From Clostridia bacterium (GTDB taxonomy: Bacteria > Bacillota > Clostridia > Lutisporales > Lutisporaceae): 64,000 bases of DNA. Below, in pieces: positions 17,690 to 32,746 of this stretch. The stretch's first letter is position 1, and each line of letters begins with the position of its first letter. The stretch spans positions 62,001-126,000 of the forward strand of contig DASPIR010000023.1 in assembly GCA_035628995.1 (NCBI GenBank). Reading direction: 5' to 3'. The notes beneath the pieces were generated by a model that made no database searches, was not told the origin of the DNA, and worked only from the letters and a program-made list of their open reading frames with translations. The translations under genes were made by a program, and so were the position numbers.

Positions 17690-17957
17690 ATAAATTCATA
17701 ATGCGTAGATGCAGAGGAGTAAACAGACGGATTTCCAATATGCTGTGCTAAATTGCAGCATTTGCAGAGAAGGGATGGGTGGTGAGAATCCCCGGGATAG
17801 GCTGTTGAAGCTGCTGCTGAGCTTCTATAAGACGCTGCAGGCGTTATACTGCATGGCAATAGCCAATAAAGTGGCCTTTTTAGGCAACTAGGGTGGTACC
17901 GCGAAGATCTCTTCGTCCCTAACCGGGATGGGGAGTTTATTTTTTTATCAAAAATTA
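17690..17957 (+). ncRNA. alanine T-box riboswitch
   Basis: The untranslated leader of alaS. It carries the T-box sequence AGGGTGGTACCGCG at 17890-17903 and the stem I apical GGTGAGAATCCC. A candidate specifier follows GAA: GCT (Ala) at 17810, in a run of three GCT codons. A terminator stem at about 17910-17945 (CTCTTCGTCCC with GGGATGGGGAG) ends in a T run. Uncharged alanine tRNA should favour the antiterminator and allow alaS transcription. Confidence 0.92.
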
Positions 17958-17984: not shown

Positions 17985-20624
17985 ATGGAAAAACTTGGAT
18001 TAAATGAAGTCAGAGAAAGATTCCTTAGCTTTTTTGAGAGCAAAGGACACTTGAGGATGAAAAGCGCATCTCTTGTCCCACAAAGTGATAAGAGTTTACT
18101 TATCATAAACTCAGGAATGGCGCCGTTGAAGCCGTTTTTTACAGGGCAGGCAGTTCCGCCAAGCTTAAGGGTTACAACCTGTCAGAAGTGCATTAGAACC
18201 CCAGATATTGAGAGAGTAGGAAAGACCGCAAGACACGGAACTTTTTTTGAAATGCTGGGTAACTTCTCCTTTGGAGAATATTTCAAGGAAGAGGCCATAG
18301 CCTGGGGCTGGGAGTTATGCACCGAGGTATTCAAGCTTCCGGTAGATAAACTTTGGGTGACTGTATATCTGGATGATGATGAAGCCTTTGACATATGGCA
18401 TAAAAAGATAGGATTACCAAAGGATAGGATTGTGAGAATGGGCAAGGAAGATAACTTCTGGGAAATAGGCCTTGGTCCCTGTGGACCTTGTTCTGAGATA
18501 TATTTTGATAGAGGACCAGGTAAAGGCTGCGGTAAGGATGACTGCAAGCTGGGTTGTGACTGTGATAGATATATAGAATTCTGGAATCTTGTATTCACAC
18601 AGTTTGACAGAGATGAAGAAGGCAACTACAATAAGCTGGCAAAGCCCAATATAGATACAGGCATGGGGCTGGAGCGAATGGCTACAGTATTGCAGGAGGT
18701 TGACAATATATTCGAGGTTGATACTATAAAATATATATTGGACAGTATCTGCAGTCTCACCGGTGTAGAATATGGAAAGGATTCCAAGCGGGATGTATCT
18801 ATAAGAGTAATCACAGATCATATCAGAGGGGTGACCTTCATGATATCCGACGGAATACTTCCAAGCAATGAAGGAAGAGGATATGTGCTTCGCAGACTGC
18901 TTAGAAGAGCTGCAAGACATGGAAGACTCCTTGGACTCACCGATCCATTCCTGAGCAACCTGGCTTTGAAGGTCATAGAAGTTAGCGGAGATGCTTATAC
19001 AGAGCTAAGAGAAAAGAAGGATTATATACTGAACATAATAAGTGTAGAAGAAGACAGGTTTTATGAGACATTAGATCAGGGACTTCTCATTCTGCAGGGC
19101 TATATCGACGAATTGAAGCTGACTAATAACAATACATTGTCCGGGGAGAATGCCTTCAGACTCTATGACACATATGGTTTCCCCTTCGATTTGACCAGAG
19201 ATGTACTGGAGGAACAAGGTTTAACGGTTGATGAAGAGACCTTCCAGAAGGAAATGAAAAGCCAGAGAGAAAGAGCAAGAGCTGCAAGAGCGGACAGCAG
19301 TGCAGAAAGCTGGAAGGAAGACATATATGCAAAAATCGACTGGAGCATAAAAACCAAATTTGTAGGCTATGAAAATAATACTGCAAAAGCTGCAGTCAAA
19401 GCCATAGTAAGGGGTAATGAGCTTACTGACTTGGCAAAGGAAGGGGATGAAATCAGTTTAATACTTGATATTACTCCTTTTTATGCAGAAAGCGGCGGTC
19501 AGTCTGCTGATACTGGCAGAATTATTGGTGAAGGCTTTGAGTTGGAAGTAAAGGACTGCAAGAAGGTTACAGGAGAAAGGTTTGCTCATATTTGCAGGGT
19601 GGTTAGCGGACAGGTTAAAGTAGGTGACTCTTGCATTGCAGAAATTAATGTCAAGAGAAGAATGGCAATAGCAAGAAACCACTCAACAACACATTTACTG
19701 CAAAAAGCATTGAGAAAATACCTTGGGACACATGTAGAGCAGGCAGGCTCCCTTGTTACTCCTGAGCGTTTAAGGTTCGATTTCTCACATTACAAGGGTA
19801 TGACCAAGGAAGAACTGGATTTAGTTGAAAAGGAAGTAAATGGAGCTATTCTCGACAGCTTGAGCATCAATATAAGGGAAAGCTCAATAGATGAAGCAAG
19901 AAAGCTAGGAGCTATGGCATTGTTCGGTGAGAAATATGGTGATGTGGTAAGGGTAGTAACTATGGGAGACTACAGTGTTGAGCTTTGCGGAGGCACTCAC
20001 CTCAAGACTACCAGCCAGGCAGGCTTCTTTAAAATCATAAGTGAGGGCGGCATAGCTGCAGGAGTAAGAAGAATAGAGGCAGTTACCGGAGAAAAAGCTT
20101 ATGAATATGTAAAAGAAGAAGAAAGGCTGATGAATGAATTATGTGACAGACTAAAGGCTCATCCTAGCGAGAGCTTGAAGAAAGTCGATACAGTACTGAA
20201 GCAGCTTAAAGAAGCTGAAAAGGAGATATCCACTCTCAAGTCTGAAATGGCAGTAGGAATGTTGGATGAACTTGCTGCTTCTGCAGTTTTGGAGAAGGGC
20301 GTAAGATATCTTGTAACAAAGGTTGATAATATGAATGTTGACAGCCTGAGAGAAATGGGAGATAAGCTAAGAGATAAGCTCGGAACCTCCTTTGTGCTGC
20401 TGTCCTCTTTTGACGGAGAAAAGACTGTACTGCTGGCAATGGCTTCAAAGGATGCGATTGCAAAGGGAGTTCATTCCGGAAATGTCATTAAGGAAGTTGC
20501 AAAGCTGGCTGGAGGAAGCGGCGGCGGAAGACCTGATATGGCTCAGGGCGGGATAAAGGATGCGGACAAAGTAAAAACTGCAATGGATGCAGTGCCTGAG
20601 ATATTGAAAAGCATGATAAAATAG
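17985..20624 (+). CDS. alaS: alanyl-tRNA synthetase
   Basis: An 879-residue class II synthetase of standard length. The N-terminal catalytic core shows FFESKGH, TCQKCIRTPDIE, RHGTFFEMLGNFSFG and GLERMATV. The editing domain has the zinc-binding RNHSTTHLLQ and the later CGGTHL. The C-Ala domain ends with GGSGGGRPDMAQGG. It is controlled by the upstream T-box. In many Firmicutes ireB follows directly, but here ireB lies 12 kb downstream past inserted genes, and a terminator ends this transcript. Confidence 0.97.
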   Translation: MEKLGLNEVRERFLSFFESKGHLRMKSASLVPQSDKSLLIINSGMAPLKPFFTGQAVPPSLRVTTCQKCIRTPDIERVGKTARHGTFFEMLGNFSFGEYFKEEAIAWGWELCTEVFKLPVDKLWVTVYLDDDEAFDIWHKKIGLPKDRIVRMGKEDNFWEIGLGPCGPCSEIYFDRGPGKGCGKDDCKLGCDCDRYIEFWNLVFTQFDRDEEGNYNKLAKPNIDTGMGLERMATVLQEVDNIFEVDTIKYILDSICSLTGVEYGKDSKRDVSIRVITDHIRGVTFMISDGILPSNEGRGYVLRRLLRRAARHGRLLGLTDPFLSNLALKVIEVSGDAYTELREKKDYILNIISVEEDRFYETLDQGLLILQGYIDELKLTNNNTLSGENAFRLYDTYGFPFDLTRDVLEEQGLTVDEETFQKEMKSQRERARAARADSSAESWKEDIYAKIDWSIKTKFVGYENNTAKAAVKAIVRGNELTDLAKEGDEISLILDITPFYAESGGQSADTGRIIGEGFELEVKDCKKVTGERFAHICRVVSGQVKVGDSCIAEINVKRRMAIARNHSTTHLLQKALRKYLGTHVEQAGSLVTPERLRFDFSHYKGMTKEELDLVEKEVNGAILDSLSINIRESSIDEARKLGAMALFGEKYGDVVRVVTMGDYSVELCGGTHLKTTSQAGFFKIISEGGIAAGVRRIEAVTGEKAYEYVKEEERLMNELCDRLKAHPSESLKKVDTVLKQLKEAEKEISTLKSEMAVGMLDELAASAVLEKGVRYLVTKVDNMNVDSLREMGDKLRDKLGTSFVLLSSFDGEKTVLLAMASKDAIAKGVHSGNVIKEVAKLAGGSGGGRPDMAQGGIKDADKVKTAMDAVPEILKSMIK

Positions 20625-20633
20625 CAGACCCCA

Positions 20634-20664
20634 AAAGCCGGAAGCAATGGCTTCCCGCTTTTTT
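20634..20664 (+). terminator. terminator after alaS
   Basis: AAAGCCGGAAGC/GCTTCCCGCTTTTTT with loop AATG, 10 bases after the stop codon. Confidence 0.85.
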
Positions 20665-20691
20665 AATTGGGTTTTATAGCTAATCCAAAAT

Positions 20692-20907
20692 AAGAACAAC
20701 CATATCATAGCCACATATGAGTATACAGAAATTGATGGCACTAATCCGCTACACCTAAGAAAAATCTAACGCCTCCCAAAGGCCGTCCTTGGCCCTGGAA
20801 GGCTTACTCGGCGTCCTGCCTCGTATACGATTTTTCTAAGGCTCCGCTCCTAAGTGCCATTGACAATTTCTGTATAAGCATACTTAGGCTATTGATATGG
20901 CTGTTCT
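20692..20907. repeat. long imperfect palindrome P1
   Basis: 216 bases that fold back on themselves. The outer arms AGAACAACCATATCATAGCC and GGCTATTGATATGGCTGTTCT pair, then TATACAGAAATTG with CAATTTCTGTATA, then GGCACT with AGTGCC, then CTAAGAAAAATC with GATTTTTCTAAGG. The GC-richer centre includes CGGCGTCCT. No convincing gene lies inside. Confidence 0.75.
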
Positions 20908-20957
20908 GGCAAGTAGCTACTTAGGGGTGTATTCTATGTAACGATTTAGTAATCATT

Positions 20958-21154
20958 GGCTTTGTATATCAGCGAACACTTATAAGTCTTTGGGTAACAG
21001 AATAGAGCTTGATACGTAGGAAAATCCGTAAGGTTTACGTGATGTAAACCTAGCACATACCGGTAGGACGCCGGGTTTATGTGCGTTAGGATTTTACAAG
21101 TATCAAGCTCTAATTCTGTCCAAAGCTTATATTGTGTGAGTCGATATACAAAGC
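20958..21154. repeat. long imperfect palindrome P2
   Basis: 197 bases with the same architecture as P1. GGCTTTGTATATC pairs with GATATACAAAGC, CTTTGGGTAACAGAAT with ATTCTGTCCAAAG, GAGCTTGATAC with GTATCAAGCTC, and GAAAATCC with GGATTTTAC. The centre contains AGGACGCCG, the reverse complement of a centre motif in P1. Together P1 and P2 fill most of the 670-base gap between alaS and the next gene. Confidence 0.75.
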
Positions 21155-21335
21155 TAATGCGGTAACTTTCGATACATTACTGATTATCCAATTCAAGGTG
21201 GAAAGCGAAAGCTTCTCACCTTTTTTGTCTATATTCATAATAAAATCCAGCTATTTGGGAAAAATATCGCATAGTGCAGTTTACAATGGATGGAAAATAA
21301 GACAGATAAGCAAAAATATGCTGTGAGGTGACGGA

Positions 21336-23798
21336 ATGAAAGCTGTAATAATGGCTGGTGGGGAAGGAACAAGACTGAGACCCGTTACATGCGGAATACC
21401 AAAACCAATGGTACCTGTGCTGAATAAGCCTGTAATGGAATACACATTAGAACTTTTGAAAAAACATAGCATTACGGATGTTGCAGCTACGCTGGCATAC
21501 TTTCCTGCTGTAATCACCGATTATTTCGGAAATGGCGGAGATTTTGGCATGAAGCTTAAATATTATATTGAGCATACCCCATTGGGAACGGGGGGAAGTG
21601 TGAAGAATGCAGAGGATTTTCTGGATGATACTTTTATTATTATTAGTGGTGATGCTCTTACAGACATAGATCTGGATAAAGCAGTGAAATTTCATAGAGA
21701 AAAGGGTTCTAAAGCTACATTAGTGCTTAAGAGGGTATCCATACCACTGGAATATGGAGTCGTAATCACCGATGAAAATGGCCGAATTACAAGCTTCATG
21801 GAGAAGCCAAGCTGGGGAGAAGTGTTCAGCGATACCATAAACACTGGTATATATATCCTTGAACCAGAAGTCCTTGATTATTATAAAAAAGGCGATAACT
21901 TCGACTTCAGCAAGGATTTATTCCCAAAGCTCTTAATGGACAATATCCCTATGTATGGGTATGTTTCAAAGGACTACTGGAATGATATCGGTGACCTGAA
22001 GGTTTATAAAGAAGTCAACTTTGATATATTGACGGGAAAAGTCAGGGCAGATATAAAATGCAATAAGGTAAGCGAAGGGGTTTGGATAGGAAAAGATACT
22101 ATTATTCCAGATGACTGCACATTGAAAGCCCCTGTATTTATAGGAAACAACTGTACGATTAAAAGCAGGGCAGTAATAGAAGCTGCGATAATAGGTGATA
22201 ATACTGAAATCGGAGAAGCAACCTCAATAAAGAAAAGTATAATTTGGAAGAACTCAATGTTTGGGCGGAACGTTCAGTGCAGGGGCGCTGTTATCTGTAC
22301 TGGAGCAAGAATAAAAAGCGGAGTGCATCTTTTTGAAAACACTGTAATCGGAAGTAATACCATTCTGGAGACTGGAGCAATAATAAAACCTGACATAAAA
22401 ATATGGCCGGAAAAGGTAGTAGAGGCAGATGCAGTGGTAACTCAGAATCTTGTATGGGGGACAAAAGCATCAAAAACCTTATTCGGTTACAGGGATATAA
22501 ACGGCGATATAAATATAAGTCTGACTCCGGAATTTGCATCACGCTTGGGCTCAGCCTTCGGCTCTTTGATGAAGGAGAACTCCAGAATTATTGTAAGCAG
22601 TGATGGAACCAACGCAGCTGAAATCGTAAGGGAATCGCTTATATCAGGGGTGTTGTCTACAGGTATCGGGGTCATAAGCATTGAAGACGCAGTAATGCCA
22701 ATAATGAGATTTGCTGTGAGATTCTATAAGGCAGAGGGCGGAGTGCACATCTGGATGGATAATAGTTCAGAGAACAAAGTGCACATAGAATTCTCAAACG
22801 AGGAAGGTATAAGCATAGATAGGGCTTCCGAGAGAAAAATTGAGAACAGCTTTATAAGAGAAGATTTCAAAAGGTGCAATGCAGATAGAATCAAGGACAT
22901 TGTAAGAGTGAGCAACTTTGATGATTATTATATACAAAACGGGGCCAATATGCTTAAGTACTACGCCAGAATAAAGAACTCAAATATGAAGCTGGTGGTA
23001 GGTTCCATATCAGAGCAGGTAGCAGGTCTGGCCGCTTCGTACCTCAGGAATCTGGGATGTTCTGTGGAGGTAGATGTAATTGATAATAACCGCAAGCCTT
23101 CAGTATACAGCAGCCACATAGCAGAGCTTACTGTAAAGTATGGAGCATGTATGGGAGTAATACTGAGCGAAGACGGTGAAAGTGCAGTACTTATAGATCA
23201 CAAGGGGAGAATATTAGACAAGGATAAGCAGATGGCTTTGACTTCACTTATTATACTAAAAACAGGAATGGACAAAAGACTCGTAGTCCCTCATACAGCT
23301 TCAAGAGTCATAGAGAAAATGGCAGAATGCTATAGTATAGAGGTTGTAAGAACAAAGAACACCCCTGCTGATATTATGAAAGCGATGTTTGAGCACAAAG
23401 TAGGAATGGAGGAGTCCTTGTTCCAATATATACTCAACTTCGATGGAATATGGGGAATCGGCAGCCTTCTTGATTTTATGGCAGCTAATTCTGTGATACT
23501 ATATGACCTTGTAAATGAGCTTCCCCATTTCCATATGGAGAAAAATGAGGTAAAGTGCGACTGGCAGCATAAAGGAAGAGTAATCAGGGAAATCATAGAG
23601 CAAAACAAAAATAGAGAGATTGAACTTTTTGAGGGGGTACGGATAAACAGCGAAGACGGCTGGGTTCTCATACTTCCCGACAGTGAGAGACCCGTATGCA
23701 ATATTTATGCAGAGGGAGTGTCTGAGGAATATGCGAAAGAGCTTGCTGCTGAATTCACAGACAGAATAAAAAGTATTATTTCTGTGTCGGAAAACTGA
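21336..23798 (+). CDS. mannose-1-phosphate guanylyltransferase fused to a phosphomannomutase-like domain
   Basis: An 820-residue fusion. Residues 1-235 are a nucleotidyltransferase ([45 protein letters not shown]). Residues 250-375 are left-handed beta-helix hexapeptide repeats. The rest is phosphohexomutase-like. The expected product is GDP-mannose or another NDP-sugar. The mutase part lacks a recognisable TASHNP phosphoserine loop (the region reads [14 protein letters not shown]) and the DGDxDR metal site reads [12 protein letters not shown], so it is probably not catalytic. ATG 21336 follows GAGGTGA. The glucan-synthase homologue starts 19 bases after its end, so they form an operon. Confidence 0.85.
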
Positions 23799-23817
23799 GG
23801 AATACGCAATCTAAGGA

Positions 23818-26800
23818 ATGGTGAGGATTATATTGGGTGTTGAAGTTTATTACATATATATAGCAGCATTTGTTCTTGCTGCTGCTTTAGTATATCTGCT
23901 CAGCAAGATCTTATATATTATAGACAGGGATGAGCCGGAAGTATATGATGCTATTCTGAATGCTGAAGAATTGGAAAGTCACGCTCTGGAAATAGCACGG
24001 AAGCATGTTGTCGGGAAAAACTCCAAGATGTATTACAGTCTGGAAGCAAGAATGAATAAGAATTTCAAGCTGATAACTTCTGTATACAAGGATTTGAATG
24101 AATATTCCAATGTCAGGAGCAGTGTTACTCCTGCTGCTGAATGGCTGCTGGACAATTTTTATATTGTTGAAGAGCAGGTAAAGGAAATAAGACAAAACCT
24201 TTCAAGGAAATATTATTATCAGCTGCCAAGGCTGAAGTCAGGAACCTTGAAAGGTTACCCCAGGGTTTATGCAATTGCTTTGGAACTGGTTTCACATACA
24301 GATGGAAGATTTGATGATAAGCAGCTGCTGGGTTTTGTAAAAGCTTATCAAACCCAATCACTTCTTTCCAGTGGTGAGCTGTGGGCTATACCAATGATGG
24401 TAAGAATGGCGCTGATCGAGCACGTAAGGCATGTATGTGAAAGTATTGAGGCATCACAGCAGCACTGGCATAAGGCGGAGAAGCTTGCAGAGCAGCTCCT
24501 CGCATACAAGGATAGGAAACCGGAAGAACTTCTTGGTGTTGCGAAGGAAAGTATGAAGCATCTTGAGGCCATTAACCCTTCCTTTGGAGAACATTTGCTA
24601 AACAGGCTCAAGAAGCAAGGCTTAGAAATTGCTCCTATAATACAGTACATAGATGAACGGCTATGTGAACAGCATACCACCTCAGAAAGCATTACTCATC
24701 TGGAGCACAGGGAACAAGCATCAAGACAGGTTTCAATGGGGAATTCCATTACCAGCCTGAGATTTATTTCTACCTTGGATTGGAAAGTTATTTTTGAGGA
24801 GTTGAGCCAGGTTGAGCAAATTATGCGGCAGGATCCTGTCAGCATTTACTCGAAAATGGACTTTCCTTCCAGGGACAGCTACCGCCATGAGGTGGAAAAG
24901 CTTTCTAAAAAGCTGAAGGTATCAGAGATACAGGTAGCAAAGAAATTGATAGAATGCGCTGTCGAGGGTGAGAAGCATATTGGCTATTACCTTTTTAGGA
25001 GCGAGAAAGAGCAGCTGCTATCGAAAATCGGGCATGGAGGAAGGTCTGATTTATCTCCTGCTGCCCTATACTTTTTTTCTATACTCGTAACTACAGTTTT
25101 GACAGTGCTTTCTTTCCTCCATTATGCATATACAGCAGGGGCAGTGGGATATGGAATATTGGTTTTAATAGCCTTGGCAATACTCATTCCAGCAAGTGAC
25201 ATTGCGGTTTCTACTGTTAATTGGGTACTGGTTCATATCAAGCCTCCGACATTCTTACCAAAGCTGGAGCTGCAGGAGGGTATTCCAGTAGAGGCGGCAG
25301 CGGTTGTTATAGTTCCAACCCTTATAACTAAGGAAAGCACTGCGGTGAAACTACTTCTTAACCTTGAGGAATATTATCTTGCCAACAGAGAGGAGAATCT
25401 GTATTTTGCCTTATTAGGTGATTATAAGGACCATTCAGAGGAGAGAGCTCCCGGAGATGAAAAAATAATAACTGCTGCTAGTGAAAAAGTAAAGGAATTG
25501 AATAAAAAATACGGAAACGGGAAGGATAAATTCTTCTTTTTTCATAGAAAAAGGGTGTTAAGCAAAGCCCAGAACAGATGGATGGGTTGGGAACGCAAGA
25601 GGGGTGCACTCTATGAATTTAACGAATTACTATTAGGAAATAAGTCTCTATCCTTTGAACATATTGAGGGAGATATCAACGCACTAAAAGATGTAAAGTA
25701 TGTAATTACAATTGATGCTGATACAAAGTTAAGTATTGAGACAGCAAAAAAACTCTTAGGCACAATTACACACCCTCTTAACAGAGCTGTAGTGGATGAA
25801 AGCAGAGGAGTAGTTACTGAAGGCTATGGGTTGCTGCAGCCTCGTATCAGTGTTGACGTAGTAAGTGCCAATGCTTCCAGGTTCGCAAGTATATTTGCAG
25901 GGCAGGGTGGTATAGACATTTATACCAATGCTGTGTCTGATGTATATCAGGATTACTTCAGTGAGGGCATTTATACAGGCAAAGGTATATATGATCTTGC
26001 AGTATTTCAAGGAATTCTAAGAAATGCTATTCCGGAAAATGCAGTGCTTAGCCATGACCTTATAGAAGGTGCCCATGTAAGAACAGGTCTCGTAACGGAT
26101 ATTGAGCTAATAGACGGATATCCTTCCAGGTACAATGCTCACTCCATGCGTCATCACAGGTGGGTCAGGGGAGACTGGCAGCTCCTTCAATGGCTCTTTG
26201 GCAAAGTTAGTAATGCTAGAGGAGAGATAGTAAAAAACCCTCTATCAGCAATAAATAGATGGAAGATACTGGACAACATGAGGAGGAGCCTTGTTGCGCC
26301 CAGCGAGATGCTGCTTTTCCTGCTCTCCTTAAGTGTGATGCCTGGAAATGCACTAATATGGTTCTTTTTTACTTTAATAGCTGCGATATTCCCCATATTC
26401 GTGAACTTTGCAGAAGTTGTGCTCATAAAGTACAATCGGAAGATTAGCGATAAGGCTGGCTATGGAGCTATTGACAGATTGCGGACGCCATTTATGCAGT
26501 CCATGCTAATATTGATATTTCTTCCTCATCAAGCCCAGCTAATGCTGGATGCTATAGTAAAGACACTGGTGAGAGTGCTTATAACAAAGAAAAAAATGCT
26601 CGAATGGGTTACAGCTGCTGATATGGAGCTTGCACTTAAGAATGATGTGATAAGCTATTGGCGGCGTATGTGGATTTGTCCCGCTGCAGCTGCTGCATCG
26701 GTTATATTATGTGTATTTAAGGCTCCAGAGGCTTTTATTTTAGTATTTGTCATAGCACCTTTATGGGCTGCAGCTCCCTCAATAGCATATTGGGTGAGCA

Positions 26801-29800
26801 AATCAAGCGATATAGAAAAGACTGGCATAAGCAAAAAGGATGTATTGGAACTAAGAATTCTTGCCCGCCAGACCTGGAGCTTTTTCGAGGATTTTGTAAG
26901 TGCAATGGATAACTATCTTCCCCCAGACAACTATCAAGAGAATCCTCCGAATGGTATAGCCCATAGAACATCACCTACCAACATAGGGCTTCTATTGGTT
27001 TCGATTATGGCTGCAAGGGATTTGGGCTATATAAGTACAACAGAAATGTTTGAAAGGTTAAATAATACAATTACTACAATAGAAAAGCTTAAAAAATGGA
27101 GAGGGCACCTGTATAACTGGTATGACACCATTACATTGGAGGTATTAAGACCCAGCTATATCTCTACAGTAGACAGCGGTAATTTTATAGCCTACCTGAT
27201 GACCTTGAGGCAAGGACTGCTTGAGTACAAGAATAGACCCTCAGTTGATAGAAGCATGGTATTTGGGCTGCAGGATACATCTCTGCTGGTCAGGTATGAG
27301 GATGAACAGCTGAATCTGGCCCCTGAGCTTTTTAGTGCAGCTTTAAAGGATAATGAGCTGGAGCAGGCCGGTTTTCGAGAGTTGCTTGCAGAAATAATTA
27401 AGAAAAACGATTTAAAAAGGCTTAAGTGGGGAATTAAGCTTCATAAGTGTGCAAGCAGTTTTCTTAATGAATTAAACAAGGAAAATAGATTTGAGAGTAC
27501 AGAAGAAATAAGCGGTCAGCTGGATAGCTTAATTGCAAGAGTTGACGTGCTGATTGAAGATATATCCTTTGTTCCGTTATATGACAGTAAGCGGAAGCTT
27601 TTTTCAATTGGCTACAATGAGGAGGAGGAACAGCTTACCAAATCATATTATGATTTGCTGGCGTCAGAGGCAAGGCAGGCAAGCCTTATCGCAATCGCAA
27701 GAGGCGAAGTCAAGAAAGAGCATTGGTTTATGCTAAATAGGACACTTACTGCAGTCAACGGCTACAAGGGGCTGATTTCCTGGACGGGTACCATGTTCGA
27801 ATATCTCATGCCGCTATTAATAATGAAGAATTACCCCAATACACTGCTGCACGAGACCTACGACTTTGTTGTGAGATGCCAGAGAGATTATGGACGCAAG
27901 AGGAAAGTACCCTGGGGTGTATCAGAGTCAGGATATAATGCTTTTGACTTACGGCTGAACTATCAGTATAAGGCCTTCGGCATACCGAGTCTAGGGCTAA
28001 AGAGGGGACTGATAAATGATACTGTTATAGCACCCTATGCTACAGTTTTAGCATTGTTGGTAAATCCGGAAGAAGCGGTTAAAAATATATTGCAGCTCAA
28101 AGAGGAAGGTTTGGATAGTCCTTATGGGTTCTATGAGGCTATAGATTATACTCCTGAAAGATTGGGTAAGGGTAAGAAAAGCAGCATTGTGAGAAGCTTT
28201 ATGGCTCATCATCAGGGTATGAGTTTTTTGGCGCTGAACAACATAATCAACAACTATGTAATGCAGGATAGGTTCCACGGAGTGCCTGTGATAAAAGCGG
28301 TAGATATACTTATGCAGGAAAAGATACCTTCAAAGGTGATATTCGCAAAGGATTACAAGGAGAAAATAGAACCTTTCGATGAAGCCATAAAGGATGATAT
28401 TGAGTATACAAAGGTACTGGGCTTAAACAATAATATACTGCCGGAAGTGCACATGCTCTCTAATGGCGATTATTCTGTAATGGTAACGGACAGTGGTTCA
28501 GGCTTCAGTAAATACAAGGATATGGCAGTTACGAGGTGGAGAGAAGACAGCATACTGAATAATTCAGGAATGTTCTTCTATATACAGGATATTGATAATA
28601 ATTCAGTATGGTCTAGCTCATTGAATCCCTGCAATACACTTCCAAATAGGTATAAGGTGGTGTTTTCCCAGGATAAGATATCATTCGCCAGAACTGATGG
28701 AGATATTGATACAAACACTGAGATAATTGTTTCAACTGAGGATAATATAGAAGTCAGGAGGTTGACGCTTACCAACCACAGCCAGCAGGCCAAAATATTG
28801 GAGATAACAAGCTATCTTGAAACTGTGATTACACCACAGGCTGCTGATGAAGCTCATCCGGCATTTAGCAACCTTTTTATCAGGACTGAGTATATGCACA
28901 GATACAATACACTGCTGGCAGTAAGAAGGCCAAGGGAGAAGGAAAAGGCTTCCATATGGGCATTCCATGAGCTTACAGTGAATGAGGAAGCGTTGGGAGG
29001 AATACAATATGAGACTGACAGAGCCAGGTTCATCGGCAGGGGAAATAGCTTGGAAAAGCCTGCAGCCGTTGAAGGGAATCATCCCCTTTCCAATACTGTA
29101 GGGCCAGTTCTGGATCCAATAATGAGCCTGAGATGCAGAGTAAGGCTTCAGCCGGGGCAGACAGTGAAGCTTAATTATATTACCGGTGTCTCTGACAGTA
29201 AGGACAGGATTACTCTGTTAGCTGAAAAATACCATGACTGGTCTTCCATAGATAGAGCCTTCGAGCTTGCATGGACCAGGAGCCAGGTTGAAATGAGATA
29301 CTTGAATCTCAAGAAAGAAGAAATTGAGCTATATAGGCAGATGATGTCACAGATACTTTACCTGAGTCCACATAGAAGAAGACTTGAAAATGCAATAAAA
29401 GAGAACAGGAAGGGTCAGCCAGGGCTTTGGGCCTATGGTATTTCAGGAGATTTTCCTATAGTGCTGATATCTATAGGCAAGGTAGAGGAAATTGATATTG
29501 TAAAAGAACTGATAAAGGCACACGAGTATTGGAGGCTGAAAGGGCTGCTTGTAGATATTGTCGTTATCAATGAGGAAGAAAGCAGCTATTCGCGACCTCT
29601 CTATAATCTCCTGCAGGATATATTATCCGTCAGCCATGCCAGAGATATAAGGGAAAGGCCTGGAGGAATATTCATAAAGCAGGGAGGTTCAATACCTGAA
29701 GAGGATAAGCAGCTTCTTGCTGCAAGTGCAAGGATAGTTCTAAAGGGAAGGAATGGAGCACTTTCAGTACAGACAAGGGTTAGAAACGGCAAGAACGCTT

Positions 29801-32265
29801 TTGAATACAAGCTTTGGAAGGGAAAGGTTAAGAAATATAACAAGCAGGATACAAGACAATTTGAGCTGCAATCTTTTAACGGTTACGGAGGTTTTGACAA
29901 AGAGGGCAAGGAATATGTAATTAGACTTGCTGAAGGAATGAATACACCAGTGCCATGGAGTAATGTAATAGCTAATAAGAGATTCGGTTTCTTAATAACA
30001 GAATCAGGTTCTTCCACTACTTGGGCTGAGAACAGCAGAGAGAACAGGCTGAGTACTTGGTCAAATGATCCGGTAACCGACCCATCCGGAGAGATGATTT
30101 ATATGAGGGATGAGAATACCGGTGAGATTTGGTCAGTTACCCCTCGACCTATAAGAACTGAAAGTCCATATATAATCAGACATGGCTTTGGTTATTCAGT
30201 GTTCGAACACAACTGGAACGGTATAGAACATGAGCTTGTTGAGTTTATTCCGGTAAATGAAAGTGTAAAGCTGTGTATACTCAAACTTAAGAATACTTCA
30301 GGCTCAAAGAGGAAGCTTTCTGCAACCTATTATGCCAGAACTGTCTTGGGGGTTAATGAGCAAAGTACTGCGCGGCATATATATACAGAATTACACAGTA
30401 ATGGTGCAATTCTGATAAGAAATAATTACAATACTGACTTCCCAGGCAGAATAGCATTCCTTGATGCCAATTCGGAAGAAAAATACTATACCGGAGACCG
30501 CAGGGAGTTTCTGGGAAATATGGGCAGCTTGAGGCATCCTGAAGCCCTGAGGCAAGAAAGACTTTCCAATACAGTGGGTGCTGGTTTTGATCCTTGTGCT
30601 TGCTTACAGGCTGTAATTGAGCTTAAGCCCAAGGAGCAGAAGGAATTGGTATTCATGTTCGGACAGAATGAAAGTATCGATGCTGTAAACACCTGTACTG
30701 AAAAATATAGAAATGTAAAAGAAGCACATAAGGCACTTGCCGAAGTAAAAGCTTACTGGGACGCCATTTTAAGGAAGGTAGAGGTTTCTACCCCTGATCG
30801 GAATATGAATATGATTTTGAACGGCTGGCTGCTTTATCAGACACTGAACTGCAGAATGTGGGCAAGAACTGCATTCTATCAGTCCGGGGGTGCTTATGGC
30901 TTCAGAGATCAGCTTCAAGATTCGATGGCTGTGATAAATACGCTTCCAGAGCTTACGAGAAACCAGATTCTGTTCCATGCTTCACACCAGTTTTTAGAGG
31001 GAGATGTGCAGCATTGGTGGCATCCAGGCTCAAATAAAGGTATAAGGACAAGATTCTCAGATGACCTGTTATGGCTGCCATATGTGACGATAGAATACAT
31101 TAAAAGGACAGGCGACTTCAATATACTGGATGAAATGGCAGAGTTTATCGAGGATGAACTATTGCAGGAGGGAGAGGATGAAAGATACAATATTCCTTAT
31201 GTATCGGATATCAGCACTTCTATATATGACCACTGCATAAGGGCTATTGAGAAGGCTTTGAAGTTCGGACATCATGGTATACCGCTAATGGGTTCCGGAG
31301 ACTGGAATGACGGCATGAGCACAGTGGGCAACAAGGGCAAGGGAGAAAGTGTCTGGATGGGATGGTTCCTATATGATATACTCATGAACTTTTCAGAGCT
31401 TTGCAGAACAAAAAAGGATGGAAACAAAGCAGACAGATATAAAAACATAGCAAAAGAAATAGCAAAAGCACAGGAAGAAAATGCCTGGGATGGAAATTGG
31501 TATCGAAGGGCATACTTTGATAATGGTTTACCCCTGGGCTCGGCAGAGAACACGGAATGCAAGATAGATTCCATTGCACAGTCTTGGGCAGTAATTTCAG
31601 GTGCGGCAAATCCTGAAAGAACAAAGGAAGCTATGGGGGCAGTGGAACAGTACCTTATCCGGAAGGATGACGGCTTGATTATGCTGCTTACGCCACCCTT
31701 TGATGAAGGTGATCTGCATCCGGGATATATAAAGGGTTATTTGCCAGGGGTGCGAGAAAATGGAGGACAATATACTCATGCAGCAGTATGGGTGATTATG
31801 GCCTATGCAATTATGGGCAATGGTGACAAGGCTTGGGAGCTGTTTAATATGCTGAACCCGATAAACCATGCAAATACAATGCTGGAAGCCTCAAGGTACA
31901 AGGTAGAGCCTTATGTAATGGCAGCAGATGTTTACGCAGTACCCCCTCACACAGGACGTGGAGGATGGACCTGGTATACAGGTGCATCTGGCTGGATGTA
32001 CAACGTAGGCGTGCAGCAAATATTGGGATTTAAGAAAAAAGGAGACAAAATTGCGTTTGAGCCTTGCATACCAAGAGATTGGTATGAGTACAATATTAAA
32101 TATAAGCATAGCAAAGACACAGTATACCAAATCACTGTAAAGAATCCTAACAGGGTAAGTAAGGGAGATGTCTTAATTGTTCTGGACGGAAGAAAGCTGG
32201 AAGGAAATGAAATTCTCCTGACTGAGGATGGGGTAGAGCATACTGTGGAAGTAAGCTTGAAATAA
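23818..32265 (+). CDS. cyclic beta-1,2-glucan synthase-like protein (GT84 plus GH94)
   Basis: 2815 residues, close to NdvB/ChvB. A membrane anchor is at about 8-28 and a pair of membrane segments at about 418-465. The GT84 core has IDADTK (about 631), SHDLIEGA (about 745) and RWVRGDWQ (about 780), followed by more membrane segments near 845-885 and 955-1000. A glucoamylase-like segment (NPPNGIAHRTSPTNIG) then starts near 1040. The C-terminal glycoside phosphorylase half keeps YGFRDQLQD, WWHPGSNKGIRTRFSDDL and GSGDWNDGM (about 2492-2500), with the GH94 general-acid Asp. It should polymerise glucose from UDP-glucose at the membrane and trim or cyclise the chain. Product and export in a Gram-positive cell are unproven. 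The start may be ATG 23818 or TTG 23833, the latter with GGTGAGGA. Confidence 0.88.
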   Translation: MVRIILGVEVYYIYIAAFVLAAALVYLLSKILYIIDRDEPEVYDAILNAEELESHALEIARKHVVGKNSKMYYSLEARMNKNFKLITSVYKDLNEYSNVRSSVTPAAEWLLDNFYIVEEQVKEIRQNLSRKYYYQLPRLKSGTLKGYPRVYAIALELVSHTDGRFDDKQLLGFVKAYQTQSLLSSGELWAIPMMVRMALIEHVRHVCESIEASQQHWHKAEKLAEQLLAYKDRKPEELLGVAKESMKHLEAINPSFGEHLLNRLKKQGLEIAPIIQYIDERLCEQHTTSESITHLEHREQASRQVSMGNSITSLRFISTLDWKVIFEELSQVEQIMRQDPVSIYSKMDFPSRDSYRHEVEKLSKKLKVSEIQVAKKLIECAVEGEKHIGYYLFRSEKEQLLSKIGHGGRSDLSPAALYFFSILVTTVLTVLSFLHYAYTAGAVGYGILVLIALAILIPASDIAVSTVNWVLVHIKPPTFLPKLELQEGIPVEAAAVVIVPTLITKESTAVKLLLNLEEYYLANREENLYFALLGDYKDHSEERAPGDEKIITAASEKVKELNKKYGNGKDKFFFFHRKRVLSKAQNRWMGWERKRGALYEFNELLLGNKSLSFEHIEGDINALKDVKYVITIDADTKLSIETAKKLLGTITHPLNRAVVDESRGVVTEGYGLLQPRISVDVVSANASRFASIFAGQGGIDIYTNAVSDVYQDYFSEGIYTGKGIYDLAVFQGILRNAIPENAVLSHDLIEGAHVRTGLVTDIELIDGYPSRYNAHSMRHHRWVRGDWQLLQWLFGKVSNARGEIVKNPLSAINRWKILDNMRRSLVAPSEMLLFLLSLSVMPGNALIWFFFTLIAAIFPIFVNFAEVVLIKYNRKISDKAGYGAIDRLRTPFMQSMLILIFLPHQAQLMLDAIVKTLVRVLITKKKMLEWVTAADMELALKNDVISYWRRMWICPAAAAASVILCVFKAPEAFILVFVIAPLWAAAPSIAYWVSKSSDIEKTGISKKDVLELRILARQTWSFFEDFVSAMDNYLPPDNYQENPPNGIAHRTSPTNIGLLLVSIMAARDLGYISTTEMFERLNNTITTIEKLKKWRGHLYNWYDTITLEVLRPSYISTVDSGNFIAYLMTLRQGLLEYKNRPSVDRSMVFGLQDTSLLVRYEDEQLNLAPELFSAALKDNELEQAGFRELLAEIIKKNDLKRLKWGIKLHKCASSFLNELNKENRFESTEEISGQLDSLIARVDVLIEDISFVPLYDSKRKLFSIGYNEEEEQLTKSYYDLLASEARQASLIAIARGEVKKEHWFMLNRTLTAVNGYKGLISWTGTMFEYLMPLLIMKNYPNTLLHETYDFVVRCQRDYGRKRKVPWGVSESGYNAFDLRLNYQYKAFGIPSLGLKRGLINDTVIAPYATVLALLVNPEEAVKNILQLKEEGLDSPYGFYEAIDYTPERLGKGKKSSIVRSFMAHHQGMSFLALNNIINNYVMQDRFHGVPVIKAVDILMQEKIPSKVIFAKDYKEKIEPFDEAIKDDIEYTKVLGLNNNILPEVHMLSNGDYSVMVTDSGSGFSKYKDMAVTRWREDSILNNSGMFFYIQDIDNNSVWSSSLNPCNTLPNRYKVVFSQDKISFARTDGDIDTNTEIIVSTEDNIEVRRLTLTNHSQQAKILEITSYLETVITPQAADEAHPAFSNLFIRTEYMHRYNTLLAVRRPREKEKASIWAFHELTVNEEALGGIQYETDRARFIGRGNSLEKPAAVEGNHPLSNTVGPVLDPIMSLRCRVRLQPGQTVKLNYITGVSDSKDRITLLAEKYHDWSSIDRAFELAWTRSQVEMRYLNLKKEEIELYRQMMSQILYLSPHRRRLENAIKENRKGQPGLWAYGISGDFPIVLISIGKVEEIDIVKELIKAHEYWRLKGLLVDIVVINEEESSYSRPLYNLLQDILSVSHARDIRERPGGIFIKQGGSIPEEDKQLLAASARIVLKGRNGALSVQTRVRNGKNAFEYKLWKGKVKKYNKQDTRQFELQSFNGYGGFDKEGKEYVIRLAEGMNTPVPWSNVIANKRFGFLITESGSSTTWAENSRENRLSTWSNDPVTDPSGEMIYMRDENTGEIWSVTPRPIRTESPYIIRHGFGYSVFEHNWNGIEHELVEFIPVNESVKLCILKLKNTSGSKRKLSATYYARTVLGVNEQSTARHIYTELHSNGAILIRNNYNTDFPGRIAFLDANSEEKYYTGDRREFLGNMGSLRHPEALRQERLSNTVGAGFDPCACLQAVIELKPKEQKELVFMFGQNESIDAVNTCTEKYRNVKEAHKALAEVKAYWDAILRKVEVSTPDRNMNMILNGWLLYQTLNCRMWARTAFYQSGGAYGFRDQLQDSMAVINTLPELTRNQILFHASHQFLEGDVQHWWHPGSNKGIRTRFSDDLLWLPYVTIEYIKRTGDFNILDEMAEFIEDELLQEGEDERYNIPYVSDISTSIYDHCIRAIEKALKFGHHGIPLMGSGDWNDGMSTVGNKGKGESVWMGWFLYDILMNFSELCRTKKDGNKADRYKNIAKEIAKAQEENAWDGNWYRRAYFDNGLPLGSAENTECKIDSIAQSWAVISGAANPERTKEAMGAVEQYLIRKDDGLIMLLTPPFDEGDLHPGYIKGYLPGVRENGGQYTHAAVWVIMAYAIMGNGDKAWELFNMLNPINHANTMLEASRYKVEPYVMAADVYAVPPHTGRGGWTWYTGASGWMYNVGVQQILGFKKKGDKIAFEPCIPRDWYEYNIKYKHSKDTVYQITVKNPNRVSKGDVLIVLDGRKLEGNEILLTEDGVEHTVEVSLK

Positions 32266-32488: not shown

Positions 32489-32746
32489 ATGAGTGTAAAA
32501 TTTGAAGACACTATGAAATTCCAAGTTGATATGGATAAGAAGTATGAAGCATCAGAGATACTTTTATCAGTATACAGCGCATTAAAGGAAAAGGGCTACA
32601 ACCCTATAAACCAGATAGTGGGATACATACTTTCCGGTGACCCGACATACATAACAAGCCATAACAATGCAAGAAGCCTTATTAAAAAGCTTGAAAGAGA
32701 TGAGCTGCTGGAGGAACTTGTAAGAGCATATGTTGATGGGAAATAG
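32489..32746 (+). CDS. ireB: IreB family regulatory phosphoprotein (UPF0297)
   Basis: An 85-residue cytosolic protein, the usual length. The conserved DTMKF near the start contains the Thr that the PASTA kinase phosphorylates in Enterococcus. [27 protein letters not shown] is the family signature in parts. In enterococci IreB negatively affects cephalosporin resistance. It normally sits between alaS and ruvX, and here it is separated from both. The GGGGGTG ribosome site is well placed before ATG 32489. Confidence 0.92.

Follow-up and report, generated by a model that had tools for sequence, protein, structure and literature searches.

Locus and fold of the palindromes

The window, a stretch of 64,000 nucleotides from a clostridial bacterium of the family Lutisporaceae, includes alaS and its T-box leader, a gene for an 820-aa protein and, between the two genes, a composite repeat built around two palindromes, P1 and P2 (Table 1). 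No open reading frame of at least 60 aa lies wholly inside 20685-21185.

Table 1. Coordinates of the composite element, its parts and its gene neighbourhood in the window
Feature	Position	Strand	Remarks
T-box leader upstream of alaS	17697-17923	(+)	91.6 bits against a cut-off of 93, E 1.1e-18
alaS	17985-20624		left neighbour of element
Terminator-like hairpin with T-run	20640-20665	(+)	directly after alaS, left of element
Composite MITE-like element	20685-21185	.	P1 + spacer + P2 + degenerate right end; right limit approximate
Left terminal repeat CCAAAATAAGAACAACCATATCA	20685-20707	(+)	present again, inverted, at the far end of the complete copy (C30); that end is degenerate in window
Palindrome P1, RF01731-like	20692-20907	(-)	fold, Rfam match; strand with GGA in both top loops
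P1 top loop AAGGAC (ANGGAN)	20785-20790	(-)	fold
P1 top loop AGGAC	20813-20817	(-)	fold
Spacer P1/P2	20908-20953	.	
Palindrome P2	20954-21160	(+)	fold; strand with GGA loop, opposite to P1
P2 other top loop GTGAT, without GGA	21039-21043	(+)	fold
P2 top loop AGGAC	21065-21069	(+)	fold
Second terminator-like hairpin with T-run	21195-21226	(+)	right of element; by eye, absent from terminator scan
820-aa gene	21336-23798		right neighbour; sugar-phosphate nucleotidyltransferase and phosphoglucosamine-mutase models, below cut-offs
ireB	32489-32746		two genes downstream of alaS, after the 820-aa and 2815-aa genes (21336-32265)

Both palindromes share an architecture in which a bulged long stem carries two short hairpins on top. 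The fold energies are -94.3 (+) and -111.9 (-) kcal/mol for P1 (z -9.4 and -9.8) and -104.1 (+) and -92.4 (-) kcal/mol for P2 (z -11.3 and -12.2), each strand being compared with 200 dinucleotide shuffles; in none of the four runs did any of the 200 shuffles fold as well. The two long imperfect palindromes described in a sequence-only reading of the window are thus present, and the shared core that it placed in reverse orientation is real: ACTCGGCGTCCTGCC at 20806-20820 matches GGTAGGACGCCGGGT at 21062-21076 in inverted orientation (15 nt, 87%), and AAAAATCTAACGC at 20760-20772 matches GCGTTAGGATTTT at 21083-21095 (13 nt, 85%). The limits given there (20692-21154) were slightly short, homology with other copies extending from about 20685 to 21160 and in some cases to about 21184. 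It is likely, as proposed, that P1 and P2 are two members of one family, given the common architecture and the short inverted cores, although a P1 profile does not match the P2 of the window at E 1e-3. The same profile does match the second unit of a composite in another genus (L101 in genome G021, E 8.5e-5), in an orientation opposite to P1. This composite has the order P1-P2 and its own inverted ends, and carries CACGGACG at the place of the GTGAT loop of P2. At a further locus (L060, G001) a P1-like unit (E 1.3e-5) faces away from its P2. The putative CsrA-type loops are predicted on opposite strands in the two halves of the element. The motifs GTTAG and CTAAC occur in the arms and led to integron attC sites being considered; this candidate was set aside, since in the folds, as read by eye, the two motifs are not positioned opposite one another.

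The palindromes had also been taken to mark the point at which an alaS-ireB adjacency was broken. This is not supported, since two genes intervene between alaS and ireB. Moreover, in three relatives the region of about 1.5 kb downstream of alaS has a long open frame that belongs to another gene and runs on the opposite strand, and P1 and P2 have no match there; these relatives thus lack the adjacency although the element is missing.

A dispersed repeat with several kinds of ends

With positions 20690-21195 as query, the host genome (3.65 Mb, 35 contigs) returned 30 loci at 29 separate places, two loci being one place. Twelve of the 29 are located at the end of a contig, where the assembly may in some cases have broken a single copy in two, so that 29 is a number of places rather than of proven copies. 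P1 and P2 are firmly a dispersed repeat, and the possibility that they are unique sequences falls away as far as copies are concerned. Six other near-complete composites show 87-89% identity over about 20685-21160 (some to 21184); other places hold a P1-type or a P2-type unit only, and two further ones (C21:116280 and C29:140313) an end sequence or mini-version only. The most complete copy (C30:9188-9703) starts with CCAAAATAAGAACAGCCATGTC and closes with an inverted copy of it, that is, it has terminal inverted repeats; the window copy keeps the left end, and its right end is degenerate. End-sequence matches with up to three mismatches number 17 in the host genome, and among these, some of them read closely, no gene enclosed by element ends was seen. 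Several marks of a miniature element (MITE) are therefore found here: shortness (about 0.5 kb), many dispersed copies (29 places), no transposase gene and, in the complete copy, terminal inverted repeats.

Matches related to the composite were found in 10 of 61 genomes, the host included: in all five other genomes of the genus, in four other genomes of the family, and in none of 39 genomes of other families at DNA-level sensitivity. P1-type and P2-type units occur at separate places in the relatives, and the P2 core is present in the metagenome-assembled genomes JAGOLK01, JAAYQK01, JAKJBU01, JAQVFD01 and JAKPKE01. The ends are variable. By eye, P2 units of the genus have other inverted ends, of the TTGCACAATAGAAGAATAATGCGACATA type. 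The G057 element has CTGYRATTCGTAATAT ends. Inverted arms were observed in G371 and G130 copies, and two RF01731 units of G130 (L194 and L195) have ends of the type GAGTCACGGGGACGGTTC, unlike those of other genera. These differences between the host, the P2 units of the genus, G021, G057 and G130 suggest that one core is carried by several kinds of ends.

GGA loops, the RF01731 family and csrA

The minus strand of P1 in the window matches the Rfam family RF01731 (TwoAYGGAY) with 34.7 bits (E 0.0012 in a 741-base search). Since this lies below the gathering score of 43 bits, the window copy is called RF01731-like and not a member. P2 of the window gave no match to the family, and an Rfam run on the whole window at E 0.1 returned only a T-box, the RF01731 match being absent. 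In the host genome the best copy scores 40.5 bits and none reaches the cut-off, which is passed by a congeneric copy (L082, 44.2 bits) and by one from the same family (L064, 44.1 bits); other congeners score up to 48.3 bits. Compared with AYGGAY, the P1 loops of the window keep GGA, and their second letter is not Y or is missing; some other host copies have loops ACGGAT or ATGGAC.

Of 37 P1 units, 33 have GGA in each of their two top loops and four in a single one. Among 37 P2 units, 30 have it in one loop, six in none and one in two. For 45 RF01731 units, the figures are two loops in 35, three in one, one in seven and none in two; these 45 are taken from 49 RF01731 loci of other genomes, L159, L164, L165 and L257 being left out and L158 and L161, from the genus of the window, being counted. 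The complementary strand has GGA loops in no P1 unit, no P2 unit and two of the 45, a scarcity that mostly follows from GGA having been the criterion for choosing the strand. CsrA sites have the form ANGGA. In the units, as in CsrA sites, GGA is mostly kept, whereas the nucleotide preceding it and the stems are variable. Such sites are described as hairpins with GGA (PMC4333381, PMC4383904). At least two GGA hairpin loops per molecule, as expected of a CsrA-type RNA, are present in P1 (two); P2 has one.

Compensatory changes were counted in alignments of 37 P1 units and 37 P2 units (A1 and A2), whose sequences are related, so that the pair counts do not represent independent events. Where both strands predict a pair, Watson-Crick double changes affect 40 of 68 pairs in P1 and 40 of 73 in P2, and on the GGA strand of the same pairs G-T outnumbers A-C by 64 to 23 (P1) and 48 to 13 (P2). 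The wobble bias is weaker when column pairs are counted, with G-T only against A-C only at 11 to 6 (P1) and 17 to 7 (P2). Of the 45 RF01731 units, 40 have their lower RNA energy on the GGA strand, which is richer in G-U pairs in 28, poorer in 12 and equal in five (p 0.017). The G-U bias and the lower RNA energy point to a function as one single strand, most simply as RNA. The earlier suggestion of large structured RNAs is thus plausible, on the grounds of the compensatory changes, the G-U bias to one strand and the nearness of P1 to an Rfam family.

RF01731 shares the Rfam clan label CL00106 with E. coli CsrB. The family was included in a 2010 table of candidate motifs (PMC2864571) and has been predicted to bind CsrA and proposed as a clostridial counterpart of CsrB-type RNAs (PMC4333381). 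CsrA binding is therefore an already published idea; mobility of RF01731 units was not found in print. No paper linking TwoAYGGAY or CsrA-type hairpins with MITEs was found in open-licence PMC texts, and passages of the Rfam 12 paper (PMC4383904) mention MITEs only for eukaryotic microRNAs.

The host genome has a csrA gene (C33:213554-213706, 77.1 bits). RF01731 matches occur in 36 of 391 genomes of the class, often several per genome; seven candidates per genome were scored class-wide and ten in the family set, so that copy numbers are lower bounds. Class-wide, csrA is present in 31 of the 36 RF01731 genomes against 94 of the 355 others (p 2e-12), and, at completeness of at least 90% and contamination of at most 5%, in 25 of 27 against 84 of 290. 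In a single family, represented by roughly one genome for each genus, csrA accompanies RF01731 in 38 of 39 genomes against 88 of 211 (p 6e-12); the class and family samples overlap, G371, G215, G320 and G105 being among the common genomes. The RF01731 genomes that form exceptions are G002, G003, G016, G018, G329 and G557. In the genus of the window three of six genomes have csrA. No csrA match was obtained in G002, G003 and G004 (95, 80 and 82% complete); G002 and G003 are nevertheless RF01731-positive, and G004 stands outside the class-wide RF01731 set although its copy L082 scores 44.2 bits. The link between csrA and RF01731 could run through motility, genome size or genome type. The co-occurrence strengthens the published CsrA-binding proposal, which is a good hypothesis.

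Mobility, gene context and explanations

Traces of movement come from a distant relative, G057, assembled as a single contig, in which 25 matches to one end sequence were found. Four of these (L227, L231, L242 and L248), with no usable right end in the search range, were left out. In the 21 copies with both ends, which include forms without the RF01731 core, the flanking 9-mers match at 7 of 9 positions or better in 20 and at 8 of 9 or better in 16, against 12 and 3 of 420 control cross-pairings of different copies; in both cases the best of shifts of one base was taken. All six copies of this set that were scored as RF01731 have 9-bp flanks matching at 7 or more positions (L182, an RF01731 copy of the same genome, is outside the 25). 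The RF01731-bearing element is thus mobile in G057. Copy lengths range from 121 to 598, and four short forms (121-136 bp; L235, L236, L239 and L245) have duplications and lack the two-hairpin top, so that movement either does not require the hairpins or took place before their loss. No transposase was recognised by eye among the open reading frames of three longer G057 candidates.

By eye, the centre of the G057 copy L234 (C1:1144734) seems to have been flipped while its ends stayed as they were, which would fit recombination between the arms of the palindrome. L251 (C1:1133300), also of G057, is cut down to about 55 bp that retain both ends and, by eye, apparently a 9-bp duplication, ATGTGATAA. 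L246 (C1:2799892), a 598-bp G057 copy with nested hairpins and apparently a further RF01731-like core inside, has no target duplication.

Target duplications of this kind were not found in the host genome, where 1 of 14 copies reached 8 of 9 positions or better (control 6 of 182), or in G021 (0 of 8, control 0 of 56), with ends shifted by up to 6 in both tests. Similar-looking terminators stand, by eye, on both sides of L100, L102 and L107; this likeness is absent from the duplication test, which covered at most 6 bases around the assumed ends. Relatives without the element at the alaS place and at that of L002 have different neighbours too, and no clean empty site was obtained. Of the terminal duplications and empty sites in relatives that the sequence-only reading had proposed to look for, duplications were found in G057. 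Its proposal of a hairpin-type mobile family is supported by the 29 host places, the matches in all five congeners, the terminal inverted repeats of the complete copy and the G057 duplications. For the host genome itself, we infer mobility from the dispersed copies and the terminal repeats. Phages gave no match to the composite and plasmids none to the G057 element, and both origins were rejected.

On balance we regard as rather probable a reading in which these are non-autonomous, MITE-like mobile palindromes that bear CsrA-type hairpins, are moved in trans and give rise to RNAs binding CsrA. A transposase supplied in trans would move the element, transcribed copies may yield CsrA-dimer-binding RNAs with a decoy or local regulatory role, and the association with CsrA would keep the hairpin tips while the outer ends diverge between genera. 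A more far-reaching version, which is conceivable but which we hold only tentatively, is that a class of transposable elements captured a CsrA-sponge hairpin as its core, so that copies tie the element and CsrA activity together; the same core would then occur on different ends across genera and be nearly confined to csrA-bearing clostridia, as in the sampled genomes. Such an element might titrate CsrA, or employ it in protecting or silencing its own RNA.

Gene context bears on these readings and on their rivals. In a set of 59 loci, mostly from other genera (L257 and L261 skipped as short, L153 and L226 being the same G057 copy, L158 and L161 coming from the genus of the window), the GGA strand runs with both flanking genes in 14 cases and against both in 19 (p 0.49), and a cis-acting 3'-UTR element, lacking the sense bias to be expected, was rejected. 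A promoter scan of the region gave no excess (1 found, 2.5 expected). The lack of orientation and of promoter excess counts against the favoured reading, in which transcription is thus hypothetical. It agrees with a purely DNA-level selfish palindrome, whose hairpins serve transposition through cruciform or single-strand recognition and whose GGA tips are unrelated to CsrA; the inverted ends and target duplications fit this as well. We nevertheless consider it rather unlikely, since the duplicated short forms of G057 make the GGA hairpins seem dispensable, unless these were lost afterwards, and since it accounts neither for the G-U bias to the GGA strand nor for the strong co-occurrence with csrA, which is also seen inside one family. 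Fixed regulatory RNA genes or 3'-UTR elements, that is, CsrB-like sponges made multi-copy by ordinary duplication, would agree with the behaviour of two orthologous copies that diverge less than their flanking DNA (P2 81.2% against 73.7/76.2%, P1 96.3% against 86.8/79.4%), a pattern that fits constraint or conversion between copies. They would also agree with the frequent position between convergent genes in the genus of the window and G021, where 19 gene gaps are convergent, 21 tandem and 2 divergent (42 classified, 3 of 45 loci unclassified, with the orthologous pairs L020/L062 and L126/L130 counted twice), against 2, 21 and 2 of the 25 window gaps of at least 40 bases. The precise ends and 9-bp duplications in G057, the different inverted ends in different genera and the absence of a sense-strand bias make this explanation improbable.

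Very improbable are long rho-independent terminators or boundary elements at gene 3' ends, despite the location directly downstream of alaS and, for other copies, near stop codons. A terminator scan of the region found four matches where 0.6 were expected; two belong to the alaS terminator, and two weak ones lie inside P1 and P2. However, two ordinary terminator-like hairpins already flank the window copy, neither palindrome as a whole is followed by a T-run, and the convergent preference was not repeated in the set of mostly other genera (9 convergent, 6 divergent and 33 tandem in 48 classified loci, 9 of 57 being unclassified).

Among known systems, RF01731 is close in form, with a long stem and two top hairpins bearing AYGGAY/ANGGA loops, and with congener copies that pass its cut-off; the window differs in the P1 score of 34.7 of 43, in the lack of a P2 match, and in that the unit lies within an element with terminal repeats, as one of an inverted pair. 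CsrB, CsrC, RsmY and RsmZ (RF00018; CL00106) resemble it in their GGA hairpin loops and, for P1, in having more than one site per molecule, but here the copies are dispersed and mobile, with one or two sites rather than one transcribed many-site gene, and are known from sequence alone. Bacterial MITEs such as Correia/NEMIS, RUP and ERIC are short and multi-copy and have inverted ends. The present element shares these traits, and the G057 relative has 9-bp target duplications; it differs in its conserved two-hairpin GGA core, in its several end sequences across genera and in the lack of a duplication in the host genome. BIME/REPIN elements are inverted palindrome pairs between genes, 20-40 nt long and tagged by a tetranucleotide, which are moved by a RAYT transposase. 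The inverted intergenic pairing is alike, and each palindrome here is about 200 nt instead of 20-40. If RF01731 copies are mobile, copy number and insertion, and not only transcription, could set the capacity of the CsrA sponge, and selfish DNA would become linked with a global regulator. Caution is also advisable with multi-copy palindromic Rfam families, which may be transposons.

Two further observations concern individual copies. Two loci of the genus, L078 (G001) and L110 (G003), from different species, are 99.9% identical over 1221 bases, and other shared loci differ more; one contig shared between the bins, or a recent transfer, could account for this. In two host copies, at L036 (1540-1780, C33) and L039 (1540-1775, C21), the left arm carries a different palindromic insert (GTAGAAGAATGTGACA...GTGGTACCCGTTCCCCC), and similar stretches stand, by eye, beside the G021 copies L104-L106 and L108; the insert is possibly a second MITE-like family.
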